From the IMG/VR virus record IMGVR_UViG_3300046450_001696, positions 1 through 32,441 of that record: a DNA stretch of 32,441 bases. One strand, written 5' to 3'. Below, piece by piece: positions 1,007 to 29,067 of the stretch. The DNA comes from a virus. The position numbers were made by a program, and so were the translations under genes. The notes beneath the pieces are model-generated. The model was given only the letters and a program-made list of their open reading frames with translations, searched no databases and was not told where the DNA came from. Within the stretch, counting starts at the first letter, position 1; every line of letters begins with the position of its first letter.

Positions 1007-1405
1007 TCAATCAGCTTCAAAATCGTCAGCGGCGGTAAAACTTTCGTCTGTACCAGCTTCTTCAATTTCCACTGCATCATCTGAGGCCGAGGTTGTAAAT
1101 GTCCATCGAGAGGAACTTCCTGAATCAAGAAGTACTCTATGACCAGTCATTTTAGTGACTTGGCGAATTGTTCCGCCATCGTCCTTTACTGTGACAGTCA
1201 TTTCACCGGCAACCAAAGCACCTTGTGCTTTGTCAACTAATTTGCAAGTTGCATAAGTTGAGCCATCATAACATTTATATCTACGTGAGCCTTTTTGCTT
1301 CACTATCCAGCCGTTTACTTCTGCGGCTCCGGTATGAAACCGACATTTTAATTCGTTACCAGCATCTGGTGAACCTAAATGTCGTTTATTAATTGGTCTT
1401 CCCAT
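1007..1405 (-). CDS. virion-type small protein, 'MGRPINKR' family, 132 aa
   Basis: The start is placed at 1405 rather than at the longer in-frame ATG (1465), because a strong AGGAG ribosome site sits about 8 nt upstream and the protein then begins MGRPINKRHLG, a beginning I associate with small proteins of marine T4-like phages. The rest is beta-rich: a central IVKQKGSRRYK segment, a VTKMTGHRVLLDSG segment and an acidic tail. Codon use is more GC-rich than the neighbours', as in highly expressed structural genes. A late-promoter match on this strand lies about 85 nt upstream (1490-1497). The function is unknown; a virion or packaged role is inferred from promoter type and expression signals. 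Confidence 0.72.
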   Translation of the reverse strand: MGRPINKRHLGSPDAGNELKCRFHTGAAEVNGWIVKQKGSRRYKCYDGSTYATCKLVDKAQGALVAGEMTVTVKDDGGTIRQVTKMTGHRVLLDSGSSSRWTFTTSASDDAVEIEEAGTDESFTAADDFEAD

Positions 1406-1455
1406 TTGTTTTCTCCTATTACGGGTTCTAACCGTTACGGGGTGGTGCCCCATAA

Positions 1456-1474
1456 AAGGTTGCAAAACAACCTT
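1456..1474. promoter_or_regulatory. inverted repeat overlapping a -35 box (possible operator or hairpin)
   Basis: A perfect 7-bp inverted repeat, AAGGTTG-caaaa-CAACCTT, covers the -35 hexamer (1460-1465) of the + strand promoter. It also lies in the 5' leader of the minus-strand gene starting at 1405. It could be a repressor site for the + promoter or an RNA hairpin for the minus transcript. Confidence 0.45.
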
Positions 1475-9250: not shown

Positions 9251-10201
9251 ATGAGATTGGCACCAAAAAACGAAAATGTTTTTTTATGTGAAATTGAGCT
9301 AACCAATAAATGCAATTATAGATGTTCTTATTGCCCTCCCTTTTCTCACGCAGGTAAAGATGTATTAGATTATAATGATGTTTTATGGTATGTCGATAAA
9401 TTAATAGAAAATGATAATACTAAAACATACAGTATGCGATTATATGGAGGCGAGCCCATATATTACCGTTATATTGATATTTTATTAAAAGAATTATATA
9501 ATAGAGGGGTAACACAACATTTTGTAACAAATGCATCACGACCAATTGAATGGTGGGAAGAGTCACAGCAATTTCTCTCAGGTTGTATAATATCTATGCA
9601 TATGGAGTATGCTGATGTTGATCATATTGTAAATGTTTGTAAAACGTTTGATGCTGATAAACCAGTTTACGTTCAACAAATGATTGATCCAAAAATTTGG
9701 GATACTTGTATAGATAAATCTACGAAATTGTATAATGAATTACTAGATGTTAAGAATGCATTGTTAATACGCAAACCTATTAATCAAAGAAATAAGTACA
9801 GCCCTGCTTATACACCTGAACAAAACGATTTTATATCAAATTGGTATAAACATTTTCCTGATGATAAAGATTGGAACTATGACTGGGAGAAATTAGATAA
9901 TAATATAATATCAGGACCTCTTTATTGGAAAGAAGACGGCAAAGAAGAAGAAGAATATAATCGAATGGGTGCCAAGTTAACAGGCGGAGATAATTTTTTT
10001 GGATGGTTATGTAATGCTGGAACAGATGGAACTATTATAGATGCTCATGGAGAAGTACACAGATCTGCTTGTACAAGCAATATTAGTATTGGTAATATTA
10101 AAAATCGAAAAGTTGAACTACCAACTAAAGGAATCATATGCGATAAATATTCTTGTAGTTGTTTTACAGATTTACAATTTCGAAAGTTTAGGACAATATG
10201 A
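9251..10201 (+). CDS. radical SAM enzyme with SPASM-like auxiliary cluster domain, 316 aa
   Basis: The iron-sulphur/SAM motif is C21-x3-C25-x2-C28 (KCNYRCSYC), followed by LYGGEP (65-69), which contacts the SAM amino group. The C-terminus has a SPASM-like pattern: C254 in WLCNAGTDG, a DAHGEVHRSAC turn (C274), SIGNI, and three more cysteines (C297, C302, C304) that could hold a second cluster. SPASM enzymes commonly modify peptides or proteins; the target here is unknown. It lies between a nucleotidyltransferase and a short protein with two targeting-type repeats, and overlaps the latter by 4 bases (ATGA). The second radical SAM protein (18082-19266) shares several features. Confidence 0.85.
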   Translation: MRLAPKNENVFLCEIELTNKCNYRCSYCPPFSHAGKDVLDYNDVLWYVDKLIENDNTKTYSMRLYGGEPIYYRYIDILLKELYNRGVTQHFVTNASRPIEWWEESQQFLSGCIISMHMEYADVDHIVNVCKTFDADKPVYVQQMIDPKIWDTCIDKSTKLYNELLDVKNALLIRKPINQRNKYSPAYTPEQNDFISNWYKHFPDDKDWNYDWEKLDNNIISGPLYWKEDGKEEEEYNRMGAKLTGGDNFFGWLCNAGTDGTIIDAHGEVHRSACTSNISIGNIKNRKVELPTKGIICDKYSCSCFTDLQFRKFRTI

Positions 10202-17425: not shown

Positions 17426-18085
17426 ATGACACAAAAATATAACTATCCAGAGTCGCGACGTGCTATGGTAAACGGCGGAAGAGTATATACTGTCGGTGAT
17501 GAAAAGCTACCTAGCGTAACAACAATATTAGATAAAACAACTGATAAGTCTTTTCTTATTGCATGGCGAAAACGTGTTGGAGATGCCGAAGCAAACCGAG
17601 TGTCAAAAGAATCATCTGGGTTAGGTACAGCAACTCACAAACTTGTTGAAAATTATTTGCTAAAAAAAGAATCAAAACCTAAAGGTAATTTAGTATGGCA
17701 AATGGCTAAAACAATTAGCAAACCAATTATCGACAATCTGAAAGAAAACTTAGATGAAGCATGGGGGGTAGAATGTACACTTTTTTATCCTGATTTATAT
17801 GCTGGCACTACTGATTTGGTTGGGATATACAAAGGTGAACCAGCAATAATAGATTTTAAAACATCAAAGAAAATAAAAAAACGTGAATGGATTGATAATT
17901 ATTTTTTGCAATGTACCGCATATGCATTAGCTCATAATAAAATGTTTGACACAAAGATAAAAAACTGTTATATTTTAATGTGTGATCGTGCAGGTAATTA
18001 TAAAGAATTTTCTATGGACAATAATGAATTTCAATTATATTCTGATAAGTGGACAGAAACGCTTGATAGGTATTATGCATTATGA
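17426..18085 (+). CDS. PD-(D/E)XK exonuclease (RecB/Cas4-like), 219 aa
   Basis: Signature parts occur in order: GLGTATHKLVE (His of the N-terminal RecB-type motif), a Glu in WGVECTLFY, D in LYAGTTDLVG, then AIIDFKTSKK giving D-x-K, and FLQCTAYALA (the Q-x3-Y motif). These bind the metal ions that cut DNA. Such phage nucleases degrade host DNA or process recombination ends. It follows its own early-type promoter and overlaps the second radical SAM gene by 4 bases (ATGA). Confidence 0.85.
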   Translation: MTQKYNYPESRRAMVNGGRVYTVGDEKLPSVTTILDKTTDKSFLIAWRKRVGDAEANRVSKESSGLGTATHKLVENYLLKKESKPKGNLVWQMAKTISKPIIDNLKENLDEAWGVECTLFYPDLYAGTTDLVGIYKGEPAIIDFKTSKKIKKREWIDNYFLQCTAYALAHNKMFDTKIKNCYILMCDRAGNYKEFSMDNNEFQLYSDKWTETLDRYYAL

Positions 18086-19266
18086 CACCTATAGTAGCAA
18101 TAGACAGTGGTTCAGAACACTTTGAAATTACATGGGACTTAGGACGACGATGCAATTTTGATTGTACATATTGCGCCGACCACCGACATAATAATACATC
18201 TCAACATGCAAGTTTAGAAACATTAATAAAAACAAGTAAATTTGTTATTAAGTATAAAAACCTTCTTCAAACTTATATGTATTCTGATAGAGAATACATA
18301 ATTGGATTTACAGGAGGCGAGCCTACAAATAATCCTAATTTTCTTGCAATGTGCGAATATATACATTCGTTAAATGATCCTAGTATAATAATTGATGTCA
18401 CTACTAATGGAGCATTTAGCGAAACATATTGTAATAAACTTATGAAAGCAGTTAATAAAGCCACTATTAGTTATCATTGTGAAGTAGATCAAAGCATAAA
18501 AGATACCGTTATTGATAGAATTTATCAAATGAAGGAATCAAATTATGAGTGTCAAGTTAATTTAATGTTCCATGCTCAAGATGATTACTTTAATGAATGT
18601 GTTAACTTATTAGAACAATTTCAAAAGGATGATATACAATTTGTACCAAGAATAATAGGCGAAAGTTACGATAATGATAGATATAATCATCGATATACCG
18701 AGCAACAACATTCGTGGTTTAGAAATTATTGGAATCCAAAAGAAAAGTGGAGCCCTGCGTCGCCACGTAAAAAAGGACGAAAAGAATTAGGCCGACCATG
18801 TTGCGGCCGACGAGAGTTTTATACACTAGATGAAACAACCGCTAACGAAATGTTAGAAACAGAAATTAAATTTAAAACTAATGATTGGCGTAAATCTGTT
18901 TTTGCTTGTAGCACAGAATTTAAAGAATGGTCGTGTATGATTAATTGGAATTGGCTACACATTGAACAGGAATATGATCGTATATTACATCACCAAACAT
19001 GTAGAGCAAATTTTGGTGGTAAGCGAGGTGAAATTGGAACAATAACAGATTGCGATAAAATTATAGAACGATTAGAAAATCAATTTGCAACAGGAATTAT
19101 GCCTGTAATAGTATGTCCAAATAAACTTTGTGGCTGTGGGTTGTGTGTACAAAAATCAAAGCATCACAAAATAACTACAGCAATGTTTAATACAACGGTG
19201 AAAGGACTAACACCGTCGATAGGTACGGAATTAAAGAGACTAAATACTGAGAGTAAGGATATATAA
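18082..19266 (+). CDS. radical SAM enzyme with extra cysteine clusters, 394 aa
   Basis: C24-x3-C28-x2-C31 (RRCNFDCTYC) binds the radical SAM 4Fe-4S cluster, and GFTGGEP (75-81) is the SAM-contact motif. The C-terminal half holds many further cysteines: a C240-C241 pair (RPCCGRREF), C276, C285, C307, C324, and the tight set C345, C350, C352, C355 (CPNKLCGCGLC), consistent with one or two auxiliary clusters. A Trp-rich MINWNWLHIEQ segment is distinctive. The substrate is unknown. Expressed from an early-type promoter with a nuclease, it differs in timing from the first radical SAM gene. Confidence 0.85.
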   Translation: MTPIVAIDSGSEHFEITWDLGRRCNFDCTYCADHRHNNTSQHASLETLIKTSKFVIKYKNLLQTYMYSDREYIIGFTGGEPTNNPNFLAMCEYIHSLNDPSIIIDVTTNGAFSETYCNKLMKAVNKATISYHCEVDQSIKDTVIDRIYQMKESNYECQVNLMFHAQDDYFNECVNLLEQFQKDDIQFVPRIIGESYDNDRYNHRYTEQQHSWFRNYWNPKEKWSPASPRKKGRKELGRPCCGRREFYTLDETTANEMLETEIKFKTNDWRKSVFACSTEFKEWSCMINWNWLHIEQEYDRILHHQTCRANFGGKRGEIGTITDCDKIIERLENQFATGIMPVIVCPNKLCGCGLCVQKSKHHKITTAMFNTTVKGLTPSIGTELKRLNTESKDI

Positions 19267-25154: not shown

Positions 25155-25248
25155 TGGCTCTGGGGGTAGGATTCGAACCTACACGCCCCTCTGCAAAAGG
25201 GACAATACGTAAACAACGCACCACGTCTACCTGTTTCGTCACCCCAGA
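25155..25248 (-). tRNA. unusual tRNA, Asn-type identity (anticodon GUU) with long variable arm
   Basis: The full fold can be drawn: acceptor TCTGGGG/CCCCAGA (7 bp, U1-A72), discriminator G73, encoded CCA, T-arm GTAGG-TTCGAAT-CCTAC, 3-bp D-stem ACG/CGT with a GGTAG loop, anticodon stem GTGCG/CGTAT with loop TTGTTTA. The anticodon is GUU (Asn). G34, U35, U36 and G73 are the known AsnRS identity set in E. coli, and U1-A72 also matches E. coli tRNA-Asn. However, D-arm spacing and the variable arm (GTCCCT/AGGGGC, 7-nt loop) are those of class II tRNA-Leu, and position 37 is U where a purine is expected. Its 5' end overlaps the stop codon of the zinc-finger gene. Confidence 0.78.
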
Positions 25249-25463
25249 GTCTGTTCTTTTATAAGATGTTCCTCTTGATGTTCTGCAAGTTCATCAAGGT
25301 CGGTAAATGTTTCGTCGCATTCAAAGCAACTAGCAAATCCATATTTTTTATAAAAGTTTTTATCATAAGCAAGTTCTCTTGCTTGTCTTTGTAATTCTTT
25401 TATCAAGTCATGTATCCCAGCTCCGTTTTTATAAATCGGAATTGTTTTATTGCTTGTAATCAT
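25239..25463 (-). CDS. small C2H2 zinc-finger protein, 74 aa
   Basis: The C-terminal half contains a clean C2H2 motif, C-x2-C-x12-H-x3-H (CFECDETF ... LAEHQEEH). The N-terminal half is a basic helix (IKELQRQARELAYDKNFYKK). Such small fingers bind nucleic acid or protein; a link to the adjacent tRNA is possible but not shown. The start ATG overlaps the stop of the synthetase-like gene (25463), and its TGA lies inside the tRNA 5' end, so the tRNA is probably cut from the same transcript. Confidence 0.75.
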   Translation of the reverse strand: MITSNKTIPIYKNGAGIHDLIKELQRQARELAYDKNFYKKYGFASCFECDETFTDLDELAEHQEEHLIKEQTLG

Positions 25464-26335
25464 TACATAAGGCCTGCTTTTTTCATTCCTGCAATCAAGC
25501 GTGTTATTCCTATTCCGCCTCCATACCTAGGTATGAAGTCATGTTTTAAAAATTCTTGAAGTTCTGCTTCTACTCTTTCTTTACCAAAGAGATCATACAA
25601 TAACTCGGCATACCCACCGTCTGATATTGTATGGAATTGATGTCGCATTTGGTCAGGATCAGTACCGCGTTCAGCACTACCGATAGTTTCCATTCCGCCT
25701 ATAATGACATCGCATTTATTAGCAAGTTTTCCAGTTTTTTTCACATCATCTTTACCAAGTTTCATGTTCCAAAAAGGACTTGTTGATTCTGGAAAATATG
25801 TTAGGAAAAATACATCTCCATATTCTTTATACATTTCTTCTTCATGTCCTGCATCTAATTCTGCACCAGTATATTTTGCTAAAACACTTTGATACATTCC
25901 GCCAGGAAAATCTTCAGTATAAGGATTTCTTTCATTTTTTGCTTTGAAACCAAGAAATTTACAAAGATCATTTTCCATTTGAAGAAGATCTTCAAAATTG
26001 CCAGGAGCTTCAAATTCGAACATTGGAAAAATAAGTTCGTGTCTACCTGGAGTTGGATTTTGTTCTTGCCTGTAACTTGTACTAACACAATAACAACCTG
26101 GTAAATCAGGTTTTGTTAGTAATTCATATTCAAGCCACATTTGACCTGTTTGAGGTAGTGGCCATATTTCACCGCTATACGTGTAGGTTGCAACCGTAGT
26201 TGGATCCTCACAAGCGGCTAGTATGCTTAATCTGCTTTGGGTATGTACTTCTTGAAAGTTTAAATTATCGAAAAAGGAACGAAGACGCTTAACCACCGTA
26301 GTAAATTCAACAGGGTTAATAAGTTGTGTAGTCAA
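25463..26335 (-). CDS. AsnRS/AspRS catalytic-core paralogue; probable asparagine synthetase (AS-AR type)
   Basis: A 290-residue class II aminoacyl-tRNA synthetase fold without the N-terminal anticodon-binding domain. Motif 2 is STSYRQEQNPTPGRHE (R89, E91). VFFLTYFPESTSPFWNMK (175-192) and CDVIIGGMETIGSAER (208-223) match AsnRS active-site segments. Motif 3 is RYGGGIGITRL (270-280). Archaeal AS-AR, the AspRS-like ammonia-dependent asparagine synthetase, is about the same length (294). Likely reaction: Asp + ATP + NH3 to Asn. An aminoacylating role with the neighbouring Asn-type tRNA is the main alternative. RBS ACGGAGAA and a late-type box (26362-26369) lie upstream. Confidence 0.82.
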   Translation of the reverse strand: MTTQLINPVEFTTVVKRLRSFFDNLNFQEVHTQSRLSILAACEDPTTVATYTYSGEIWPLPQTGQMWLEYELLTKPDLPGCYCVSTSYRQEQNPTPGRHELIFPMFEFEAPGNFEDLLQMENDLCKFLGFKAKNERNPYTEDFPGGMYQSVLAKYTGAELDAGHEEEMYKEYGDVFFLTYFPESTSPFWNMKLGKDDVKKTGKLANKCDVIIGGMETIGSAERGTDPDQMRHQFHTISDGGYAELLYDLFGKERVEAELQEFLKHDFIPRYGGGIGITRLIAGMKKAGLM

Positions 26336-26360: not shown

Positions 26361-26795
26361 CTATTTATGCCGTGGGTCTAATTTCAGCTCTGTTGTAATT
26401 TCTAAACGTAGTCCATTTGGATCAAAAAAGTAAATGCTATAAATCCAGTCATCGTGATTAGTTGGGCCGATAACATCTATATCGTCCGATTTTAAAAGTT
26501 TGCACCATTTATCAACATCGTCCTTCGTATCTACTTCAAATGCAAAATGCACAATCCAATCATCACAATCAGTAGTTGTACCTTTGCCATCGCCAGTATC
26601 AAAAAAAGCAATATTACTACCGTCATCCATTTCAAAAAAGATATGTTTGTACGGAGCATATTCTCCTGTACTTGGTACATAATCTTTTTCTATAGTATGA
26701 ACAAGAGGCAGATTTAAAATTCCACTATAAAAATCAATTGTTTCTTGCACATTGGCACATTTCCAAGCAAAATGATGCAACCCGTTAATGTGCAT
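26361..26795 (-). CDS. VOC-superfamily metalloenzyme (glyoxalase/dioxygenase type), 144 aa
   Basis: The start is placed at 26795 (MHINGLHHFAW), giving a normal single VOC domain and an 11-base overlap with the previous gene; a longer frame to 26852 would run inside that gene. Candidate metal ligands stand at the usual places: H7 or H8, E55 (HIFFEMDDG), H83 (WIVHFAFEV) and E132 (GLRLEITTE). Two beta-alpha-beta-beta-beta repeats are visible. Members act as glyoxalases, epimerases, resistance proteins or dioxygenases. Coupled expression with an oxidase and the synthetase-like protein suggests a shared small-molecule pathway. Confidence 0.85.
   Translation of the reverse strand: MHINGLHHFAWKCANVQETIDFYSGILNLPLVHTIEKDYVPSTGEYAPYKHIFFEMDDGSNIAFFDTGDGKGTTTDCDDWIVHFAFEVDTKDDVDKWCKLLKSDDIDVIGPTNHDDWIYSIYFFDPNGLRLEITTELKLDPRHK
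26362..26369 (-). promoter_or_regulatory. late-promoter-like CATAAATA before the synthetase-like gene
   Basis: On the minus strand, one mismatch to TATAAATA, 26 nt upstream of the ATG at 26335 and overlapping the end of the VOC gene. It may allow separate late expression of the synthetase-like gene, zinc finger and tRNA. Confidence 0.4.
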
Positions 26796-27546
26796 AGTGT
26801 TCTCGGCTGATACGTTCTTGGTCAAGCCCAACCCAAAACGCTTCGACTCCATTTAACATTTCATTACCTGCTTTAATAAACAAATCCTCATTAAGGTTAT
26901 GTTCATTGTACAATGTGATCATTTCTTCTCTTGTGTGTTCGGCATGTTGTTCTTCTAACTTGTCATGCCATGTAAAAAATCCTAAAGGCAAATTTAAAGA
27001 ATATTTTGTTTTAAATTTTTGTAATCCTGCTATCAAATCTTTCCAAAAGCCGGCCGCCGCCCAATTTTCTACTGCAAAACTTGCACCTGCAGATACATTA
27101 AAATCTTCATTACCATATATTCTAATTAATTCATCACAATAAAATAATGTTGCTGGCGATCCGTGTTTTCGTTTACCTATATCATCAAATGTTAATCCTA
27201 ATGGTTTAGCAAAACTAACTAGCCATTCGAAATGTGCAGATGCAAATCTATATGTTCCTTCATCTACAGAACCATCTTTAAAAGCAACCCCTATTTCATT
27301 TGCTAATACTTCTTTTCCTGCTCTTGCTTCCTCTAAATCTATTGCATTTATAACTTTGTTTAATTGAGCAATAATAAATTGATTTGAAAAAACAGAAAAT
27401 TGTTGGGTAAATTGACGTACATCTTCTAATATTAAATTTGGTGTATGCCTAAACCAACTACAATATTTGTTGTCTATTATAACTGAATGATTAAGTAATT
27501 CATTATCTATTCGTTCTAAAAAATTATCAAGAGGCATACTTGTCAT
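26785..27546 (-). CDS. haem-oxygenase-like di-iron oxidase (HDO) family protein, 253 aa
   Basis: Wholly helical, as for the haem-oxygenase-like fold. Candidate di-iron ligands: E84 (LANEIGVAF), H105/E107 (SAHFEWL), E160 (FAVENWAAAGFW) and H194-x3-E198-x2-H201 (TWHDKLEEQHAEH), the H-x3-D/E-x2-H motif of this family. Known members (UndA, BesC, SznF, CADD) perform oxidative cleavage or hydroxylation of amino acids and fatty acids. It overlaps the upstream membrane-protein gene by 20 bases and the VOC gene by 11, so all three are co-translated. The substrate is unknown; an amino acid or amide is suggested only by the neighbours. Confidence 0.75.
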   Translation of the reverse strand: MTSMPLDNFLERIDNELLNHSVIIDNKYCSWFRHTPNLILEDVRQFTQQFSVFSNQFIIAQLNKVINAIDLEEARAGKEVLANEIGVAFKDGSVDEGTYRFASAHFEWLVSFAKPLGLTFDDIGKRKHGSPATLFYCDELIRIYGNEDFNVSAGASFAVENWAAAGFWKDLIAGLQKFKTKYSLNLPLGFFTWHDKLEEQHAEHTREEMITLYNEHNLNEDLFIKAGNEMLNGVEAFWVGLDQERISREHYAH

Positions 27547-27808
27547 CGTCCCAATTATCTAATTCTTTCCAGCCTTCCCAATCAGGGATACTTTTACGAA
27601 TTACATTGGTTCGAGCAACTATCATTTCTGCAAGCCCAAATCCTTCATGAATAAAGGGAAAAATTGCATGTACGTGAGAGAAGAATGCTATATAATAATA
27701 AATTGATCCGCATTTAAGTGCAATCCATGCATGGTAAAAATAATAAGATAGATTACACGGTCTACCTGCGGCTTTGGCCGCATTTTGTAAATGTTCTGTA
27801 AGAAACAT
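27527..27808 (-). CDS. DUF6356-like small membrane protein, 93 aa
   Basis: FLTEHLQNAAKAAGRPCNLSYYFYHAWIALKCG, followed by hydrophobic IYYYIAFFSHVHAIFPFIHEGFG, fits a family of short, His-rich membrane proteins that I associate with DUF6356. Several His residues lie in or near the membrane segment, so metal or quinone contact is possible. It is the first gene of the minus cassette, under a late-type box at 27871-27878, and its end overlaps the oxidase start by 20 bases. It might place the oxidase at the membrane; this is inference. Confidence 0.6.
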   Translation of the reverse strand: MFLTEHLQNAAKAAGRPCNLSYYFYHAWIALKCGSIYYYIAFFSHVHAIFPFIHEGFGLAEMIVARTNVIRKSIPDWEGWKELDNWDDDKYAS

Positions 27809-27925: not shown

Positions 27926-28014
27926 AAAATTAGGCGTTTTTGGAAGAAATTCACTGGAAAATTTTACAGACATTGCTTATATTTTCAACATAAAATTAAA
28001 CGTTTTCGGAAGGA
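27926..28014 (+). repeat. two-copy direct repeat in the glutamine synthetase leader
   Basis: Copies at 27926-27948 and 27992-28014, 66 nt apart, share about 19 of 23 bases (AAAATTA-xx-CGTTTT-x-GGAAG core). Each is preceded by a -10-like TATA/CATA. The second copy supplies the GGAAGGA ribosome site of the glutamine synthetase gene. It may be a duplicated leader/promoter or a two-site operator. Apart from this repeat and the late-type box at 27871, I see nothing else in the 27809-28021 gap. Confidence 0.6.
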
Positions 28015-28021
28015 AAACAAC

Positions 28022-28981
28022 ATGAAGACAGTACTAGAATACGTATGGCTCGATGCGAACGAGCATTTACGTAGTAAAACAAAAGTCGCCGATGGCGATA
28101 TTAATAAGTTAGAACTAGTTCCAATTTGGGGTTATGATGGTTCATCAACTGATCAAGCTCCTGGCAACCATTCTGATGTTACATTAACCCCGGTTAAACT
28201 TTATCATAACCCATTCCAGCCATCAGGTTGGCTTGTTATGTGTTCAACTGAAAAGAGAGAAGCCATAACATTTGAAGACTCTGATGATTATTGGTTTGGA
28301 TTTGAACAAGAATACTTTATAACAAATGGTACTGGTAAACCACTAGGCTGGGCAAACGGAGAGCCCGGACCTCAAGGACCATATTACTGTGGTGTAGGTG
28401 CAAGTAAAGTTGCAGGAAGAAAAGTAGTTTCAGATCATATGGATGCATGTATTGATGCAGAGATTGATATCACTGGTACAAACGCTGAAGTTGCTCTTGG
28501 CCAATGGGAATATCAAGTGTTTAGTAAAGGTGCAAAGAATGCCGGTGATGATCTTTGGATGTCACGATATATTTTAGAGAGAGTTGCAGAAGAGCATGGC
28601 TGTGATATTAATATAGAACCTAAACCTATTAAAGGTGATTGGAATGGATCTGGGATGCATACAAACTTTAGCACAAACGAGATGAGAAACGATTCTCAGT
28701 TAGGTGTCTATCATGATATATTAGATAAAATGAAAGCCCGACATGCTGAACACATAGCAGTATATGGAAAAGATAATGATCAAAGATTGACTGGTGAACA
28801 CGAGACAGCATCTATTGATCAGTTTACTTATGGTGAAGGTGATAGAGGTGCAAGTGTGAGAATACCTCTTGAGACAGTTGAGTCTAATTATACAACTGGT
28901 TACTTAGAAGATAGACGACCAGCATCTAATGCCAATCCATATGATATCACAAAAGTTATTATAGATACTATTCAAGCATAA
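28022..28981 (+). CDS. glutamine synthetase, eukaryotic (GSII) type, 319 aa
   Basis: Nearly every GSII block is present: WGYDGSSTDQAPG (N-terminal beta-grasp), WFGFEQEYFI (metal-binding Glu), GPYYCGVGA, IDITGTNAEVALGQWEYQV, GDWNGSGMHTNFST (His/Asn ATP and glutamate site), RLTGEHETASIDQF, RGASVRIP (catalytic Arg) and GYLEDRRPASNANPYD. It joins Glu and ammonia using ATP to make Gln. About 30-40 residues shorter than usual GSII (350-370), lost at the termini, with all active-site blocks kept. AAGGA lies before the ATG. It is divergent from the cassette with the asparagine-synthetase-like gene and followed by its own terminator. GSII in a phage is highly unusual. Confidence 0.95.
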   Translation: MKTVLEYVWLDANEHLRSKTKVADGDINKLELVPIWGYDGSSTDQAPGNHSDVTLTPVKLYHNPFQPSGWLVMCSTEKREAITFEDSDDYWFGFEQEYFITNGTGKPLGWANGEPGPQGPYYCGVGASKVAGRKVVSDHMDACIDAEIDITGTNAEVALGQWEYQVFSKGAKNAGDDLWMSRYILERVAEEHGCDINIEPKPIKGDWNGSGMHTNFSTNEMRNDSQLGVYHDILDKMKARHAEHIAVYGKDNDQRLTGEHETASIDQFTYGEGDRGASVRIPLETVESNYTTGYLEDRRPASNANPYDITKVIIDTIQA

Positions 28982-28987
28982 TTAACT

Positions 28988-29029
28988 AATGTTCGATACT
29001 TTTAAATTCTAAAAGTATTGAACATTTTT
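28988..29029 (+). terminator. Rho-independent terminator after glutamine synthetase
   Basis: A long stem of about 16 bp (AATGTTCGATACTTTT against AAAAGTATTGAACATT, one G-T pair) with a 7-nt loop, ending in a run of T. It follows the glutamine synthetase stop by a few bases. Confidence 0.88.
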
Positions 29030-29037
29030 GCGACAGG

Positions 29038-29067
29038 TTGACAACATTAGCAATAATGTGCTATAAT
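29038..29067 (+). promoter_or_regulatory. consensus sigma70 promoter, leaderless
   Basis: A perfect TTGACA (29038-29043), an 18-bp spacer and a perfect TATAAT (29062-29067). The predicted start (about 29074) is next to the ATG at 29075, so the GIY-YIG gene mRNA has essentially no leader. Confidence 0.8.

Follow-up and report, generated by a model that had tools for sequence, protein, structure and literature searches.

A complete GSII-type glutamine synthetase in a T4-like marine phage, a probable auxiliary metabolic gene

Phage-borne glutamine synthetase (GS) is already known from metagenomes. According to the available portions of the reports concerned, GS genes are carried by nine moraphages (PMC12619734), by Ross Ice Shelf viruses of the Caudoviricetes (PMC10721903), and by jumbo phages (PMC13037316); they also occur in South Pacific viromes (as cited in PMC9083009) and in giant viruses (PMC9270025). 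The metagenomic phage genes (PMC12619734, PMC10721903, PMC13037316) resemble the gene described here in being borne by aquatic phages, and they were read as nitrogen-related auxiliary metabolic genes. Unlike the present analysis, the available portions of those reports do not give the enzyme type (GSI or GSII), a phylogeny, or an active-site analysis. The hosts that they state for the moraphages and the Ross Ice Shelf viruses (Bacteroidota, SAR86) also differ from those indicated here. What is added here is a GSII enzyme as a candidate phage auxiliary metabolic gene. Our main reading, to which we give a probability of roughly 0.7, is that the phage carries a catalytically complete auxiliary metabolic GSII that would supply deregulated glutamine.

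The window, that is, the whole stretch of DNA analyzed, is a 32,441-base IMG/VR virus record and represents a 32-kb fragment. It contains an intact open reading frame (ORF) at positions 28022 to 28981 on the plus strand (319 amino acids [aa], ATG start, TAA stop included), with exactly the coordinates of the original prediction. In phmmer searches against the PDB, the product matched yeast, plant (maize), and animal GSII with E values of 1e-91 to 1e-75 (yeast and maize, ∼1e-90), whereas matches to GSI reached only ∼1e-9 or weaker. The NCBIfam GlnII profile gave 324.9 bits over profile positions 4 to 328 of 333, compared with 54.7 bits for the GlnA (GSI) profile. Both Gln-synt_N and Gln-synt_C of Pfam were matched; the N-domain score of 29.6 bits lies just below the 33.4-bit cutoff, and the same region aligns fully in phmmer. 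The domain organization, a beta-grasp N-domain followed by Gln-synt_C within a size class of ∼320 to 370 aa, is that of GSII, and the protein is nearer GSII than GSI or GSIII. It is unlike GSI-beta, which has ∼470 aa and a C-terminal region with the adenylylated tyrosine, in that it stops 19 residues after the EDRRP motif. The score misses the curated cutoff of NCBIfam NF041605 (500 bits), which delimits a subfamily narrower than GSII because almost all cellular GlnII proteins found here also fall short of it (mostly 370 to 470 bits, one above). On its sequence, we therefore place the protein in GSII and do not file it under the NF041605 equivalog.

Bacterial GlnII/GSII (NF041605) and the structurally characterized enzymes of Streptomyces coelicolor (4bax), maize (2d3a), and yeast (3fky) resemble the window GS in domain order, tested catalytic residues, and fold; bacterial GlnII/GSII and the window GS are also alike in having no GSI adenylylation region. 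The window GS differs from bacterial GlnII in being ∼46 to 56% identical, ∼12 residues shorter internally, and placed in a mainly virus-only clade.

Every catalytic residue tested is present in the window GS (D39, E95, E97, E156, E163, N208, G209, H213, R255, E261, R275, R280, E296, R298, and R299), and the same 15 residues are invariant in 33 of 33 viral GSII proteins in an alignment of 84 GSII. They include metal ligands, the ammonium-site Asp, the flap Glu, and substrate Arg/Asn residues; we matched them to the metal, ammonium, flap, and substrate residues of the maize and human enzymes and take their roles to be those of established GSII structures. The alignment revealed no substitution at any tested position of the window GS, bearing out the earlier statement that all active-site blocks are intact. 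An AlphaFold model built from a 34-sequence alignment (pLDDT, 85; pTM, 0.89) adopts the GSII fold, with TM scores of ∼0.9 (TMq, 0.84 to 0.91) against plant, animal, yeast, and Streptomyces GSII structures. We conclude that the ORF encodes a GSII glutamine synthetase that is probably complete and active. Pairwise dN/dS values of 0.05 to 0.23 between the window GS and ten relatives indicate that the gene is under purifying selection and hence maintained.

The original prediction also described termini trimmed by ∼30 to 40 residues, which comparison with 46 bacterial GlnII proteins contradicts. Four residues precede the EYVW motif (bacterial range, 2 to 6) and 19 follow EDRRP (bacterial median, 21). 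A clearly longer N-terminus is found only in eukaryotic GSII, and the match of the window GS begins at maize residue 18. The shortfall relative to the bacterial median length (319 versus ∼337 aa) is mainly internal, with a linker between the domains of 53 rather than 62 residues, corresponding to a 9-residue deletion, and 33 rather than 36 residues near the N-terminus. Trimmed termini as a regulatory adaptation were ruled out, given ends like those of bacterial GlnII. The internal losses of 9 and 3 residues are common to the window clade, and the linker deletion might be thought to disturb ring assembly, so that GS activity would have been lost or changed and the protein would make another gamma-glutamyl amide or act as a decoy for host regulators. 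Other phage amidoligases of GS-like fold do exist (weak hits in the BFVD viral structure library, e.g., H9D1C9). However, the full-length fold match is to GSII and not to amidoligases, and all tested catalytic residues, including the ammonium-site Asp and the flap Glu, are invariant across the viral clade; we consider a lost or altered activity very improbable.

The GS-bearing contig is a T4-like marine phage. Window genes include a phage-type ribonucleotide reductase, a DnaB-like helicase, and an endolysin. An 89.5-kb contig (G001:C2; L240 to L244) is collinear with nearly all of the window at 95 to 98% nucleotide identity and encodes a terminase large subunit, tail sheath, tail tube, head-tail adaptor Ad2, SSB, and UvsW-like helicase. 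In locus L030, the gene order is sheath, tube, portal, head protease, scaffold, major head protein, tube-like protein, GS, UvsY, and UvsW, and parts of this order (GS among head genes, uvsY/uvsW) recur in ∼20 loci. The window record is only a 32-kb fragment and G001:C2, with one close GS copy, was binned with a Methylophilaceae metagenome-assembled genome (MAG), which might suggest that the GS gene is a piece of host DNA on a contig that is chimeric or misbinned. Yet the contig in the MAG bin is phage DNA that runs collinear with the window, independent contigs repeat the placement of GS among head genes, and the binned host family has no GSII: in 150 Methylophilaceae genomes, we found none save the phage contig in one bin, other hits being weak GSI cross-matches. 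We regard a host origin of the contig as so improbable that it can be set aside. The claim that a phage encodes a complete GSII is thereby upheld by an intact 319-aa ORF, its GSII sequence, and a phage contig. As a cellular-type metabolic gene in a genuine phage genome, kept by selection, the gene has the features of an auxiliary metabolic gene.

Several other features of these contigs were observed. By eye, ORFs in positions 1 to 36000 of G001:C2 (L240 and L241) resemble partial methionyl-tRNA synthetase, SufS, SufC, and SufB (Fe-S assembly), and an amidinotransferase-like protein; for three of these, PHROG matches are confined to families of unknown function. The window also encodes two radical SAM proteins (9251 to 10201 and 18082 to 19266, plus strand) with weak MoaA-like and viperin-like scores. 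An Rfam freshwater-2 cis-regulatory RNA motif (1403 to 1473, minus strand; 60 bits, above the gathering score) lies at the start of a minus-strand ORF (1007 to 1465), and the motif is also found at positions 9983 to 10053 (plus strand) of L243.

The surroundings of GS vary. In the window, L003, L005, and L008, divergent genes (27527 to 27808 and 26785 to 27546 in the window) are common to all four, and a third context, apart from this one and the head-gene arrangement, is common to L021, L024, and L026. The GS context thus differs by subclade, and the gene therefore moves among phage positions while the protein clade remains unchanged. The cluster divergent from GS (26361 to 27808, minus strand), which is kept beside it in L003, L005, and L008, comprises a glyoxalase-family protein, a 253-aa protein, and a 93-aa ORF; the 253-aa protein has a weak CADD-family (TIGR04305) match and may be a heme-oxygenase-like diiron enzyme. 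A 107-aa SET-domain protein (Pfam PF00856; 24754 to 25077, plus strand) has 44 to 45% identical relatives upstream of GS in L021, L024, and L026.

Also near GS is an AsnRS/AspRS-like catalytic core of 290 aa without an anticodon-binding domain (25463 to 26335, minus strand; phrog_29758). Together with a tRNA, it forms a pair spanning 25155 to 26335 on the minus strand, which is also present in L082 to L160 and in L236 (cyanophage P-SSM7), where it is annotated as "tRNA ligase" followed by tRNA-Asn. The tRNA after the gene in the window is 94 nucleotides (nt) long, with a GTT (Asn) anticodon, a long variable arm, and a class II shape. Of the related loci, 75 extend far enough downstream for inspection, and 67 of these have a tRNA T-arm and a CCA end in the next 400 nt. 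The tRNAs have a body that by eye resembles tRNA-Leu, an Asn anticodon, and an encoded G73-CCA, with a class II shape in most and lengths of 77 to 101 nt. The predicted fold of the protein matches AsnRS (Z, 26.4) better than archaeal asparagine synthetase A (3reu; Z, 23.1), so that an AS-AR-type asparagine synthetase would be compatible with the fold and is less favored. A tRNA substrate is favored because the tRNA partner is constant, and the two genes are possibly a self-contained charging pair. In the literature searched, we found no report of an AsnRS and tRNA-Asn pair in phages.

The proximity of this gene to GS in the window group and in L044, together with genes near GS in L015 and L030 that on inspection look sugar modifying, would fit an active GSII with a narrower purpose. 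Such a purpose could be ammonium removal or a single glutamine-dependent phage step, for example, amidotransferase-driven nucleotide or surface-sugar synthesis or transamidation of Asp-tRNA-Asn. Against this, no one partner pathway is conserved across the subclade-specific contexts (head cassette, divergent cluster, and others), and the AsnRS-like gene, encoded in at least 595 IMG/VR stretches, is mostly found without GS nearby. We think a narrower purpose unlikely.

The original prediction gave GS its own leader and terminator. A 213-nt gap, conserved in part among close relatives, separates the gene from its divergent neighbor. An AGGA ribosome-binding site (28011 to 28014, plus strand) lies just 5′ of the ATG, and AGGAAAAC at this site is kept in relatives L001, L002, L003, L005, L008, and L020. 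An upstream block (27973 to 28019, plus strand) with the pattern TTGCTTATATTTTCA..AAAATTAA..GTTTT is common to near relatives (alignment A1) and is likely a 5′ untranslated region or putative promoter region. Immediately 3′ of the stop codon, an A+T-rich 17-bp hairpin with a T run (28988 to 29029, plus strand; −17.9 kcal/mol; z, −5.75; 0 of 200 shuffles as stable) is a probable intrinsic terminator; it was not among the hits of a simple terminator scan. The following gene has a perfect TTGACA-18-TATAAT promoter match of its own at 29038 to 29067. For GS, promoter-like matches in the region numbered 9, compared with 6.4 (standard deviation, 2.4) expected from shuffling, so a sigma-70-like promoter is not clearly above chance. 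The gap, AGGA site, conserved block, and strong hairpin with T run agree with the predicted leader and terminator. A glutamine riboswitch upstream of GS was likewise considered and rejected: Rfam searches of the window and related contigs identified neither this nor any other known RNA regulator by the GS genes.

A pattern scan of IMG/VR recovered 580 stretches encoding GS relatives, of which 80 were retained; 580 is a rough count because IMG/VR can include some cellular pieces. Phage GSII is not rare in this collection. Among the 50,697 phage records of INPHARED, full-length relatives occurred only in four uncultured huge-phage records (43 to 48% identity), two of which, LR756501 and LR756503, appear to be one genome; none was found in isolate phages. 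Matches in Listeria and Enterococcus phages were weak and partial (27%), came from unannotated records, and were set aside. BFVD yielded no full-length match, only two weak, fragment-like hits. The idea that few or no phage GSII genes have been described thus holds for INPHARED isolates and BFVD and fails for metagenomes, given the ∼580 IMG/VR stretches and the available portions of published metagenomic GS reports.

A tree with a sample of cellular GSII, among them bacterial GlnII from several phyla, united 32 of the 33 viral sequences in one clade separate from bacterial GlnII (UFboot, 99; SH-aLRT, 93). This phylogeny rejects recent capture from a host for the main viral clade, and the main viral GSII lineage is apparently old and mostly virus only. 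The remaining sequence, L039, was unplaced; all viral copies including L039 formed a single clade in only 26% of bootstrap trees, and we do not claim such a clade. In a quick tree, the nearest cellular sequences were mostly from Bacteroidota. The huge phages LR756501, LR756502, and LR745206 (635 to 735 kb) also encode GSII, 43 to 48% identical to the window GS over the full length. Unlike the window GS, LR756502 and LR745206 are placed outside the main viral clade, and LR756501 is placed among bacterial sequences, suggesting that huge phages probably acquired GSII separately.

Binning weakly indicates OM43/Methylophilaceae or SAR11 as the host group: L162 falls in a Methylophilaceae bin and L161, which belongs to the same GS clade but is more distant, falls in a Pelagibacter bin. 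The GS copy of L162 is frameshifted in that assembly, likely through sequencing error because many other genes on its contig are broken too. Nine of the 10 Methylophilaceae genomes examined encode GlnE, host-type GSI has 472 aa, and its tyrosine motif KDLYHLTPEE is kept in four OM43-like genomes. The C-terminal region of GSI on which GlnE acts by adenylylation is generally missing from GSII enzymes. With no adenylylation site, the window GS would escape inactivation by GlnE. The proposal that a short GSII escapes host control by its shortness is not supported, since what would count is the enzyme type rather than any trimming. Host glnA, gltBD, and amt transcripts increase when pelagiphages infect (PMC12753301), making glutamine demand during infection plausible. 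According to the paper on the OM43 phage Melnitz, neither host nor phage encodes glnA (PMC9004378). The small Methylophilaceae genomes examined here carry GSI (loci L306 to L310), which sits uneasily with that paper's description of OM43 strain H5P1 as lacking glnA.

Raising glutamine in infection is the most economical role for the phage GSII. The gene would be expressed during infection and its product would assemble as a GSII oligomer, converting glutamate, NH4+, and ATP to glutamine. This glutamine would feed viral nucleotide and protein synthesis, and the phage enzyme would keep working when a GlnE-bearing host switches off its own GSI. More tentatively, T4-like and related phages may have an old GSII lineage of their own, which occurs in many marine phages, frequently within a head-gene cassette, and which would uncouple glutamine production from control by host PII/GlnE.

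Marine T4-like phages carry, on hundreds of contigs, a glutamine synthetase that is GSII rather than the GSI of their probable hosts, and earlier reports of unspecified phage glutamine synthetase gain a type to check against. The question now raised is whether phage GSII keeps glutamine flowing while host GSI is adenylylated and whether this benefits phage yield under nitrogen limitation. If the uncoupling is real, it would be a viral switch of nitrogen assimilation, based on an added enzyme type beyond the reach of host regulation.
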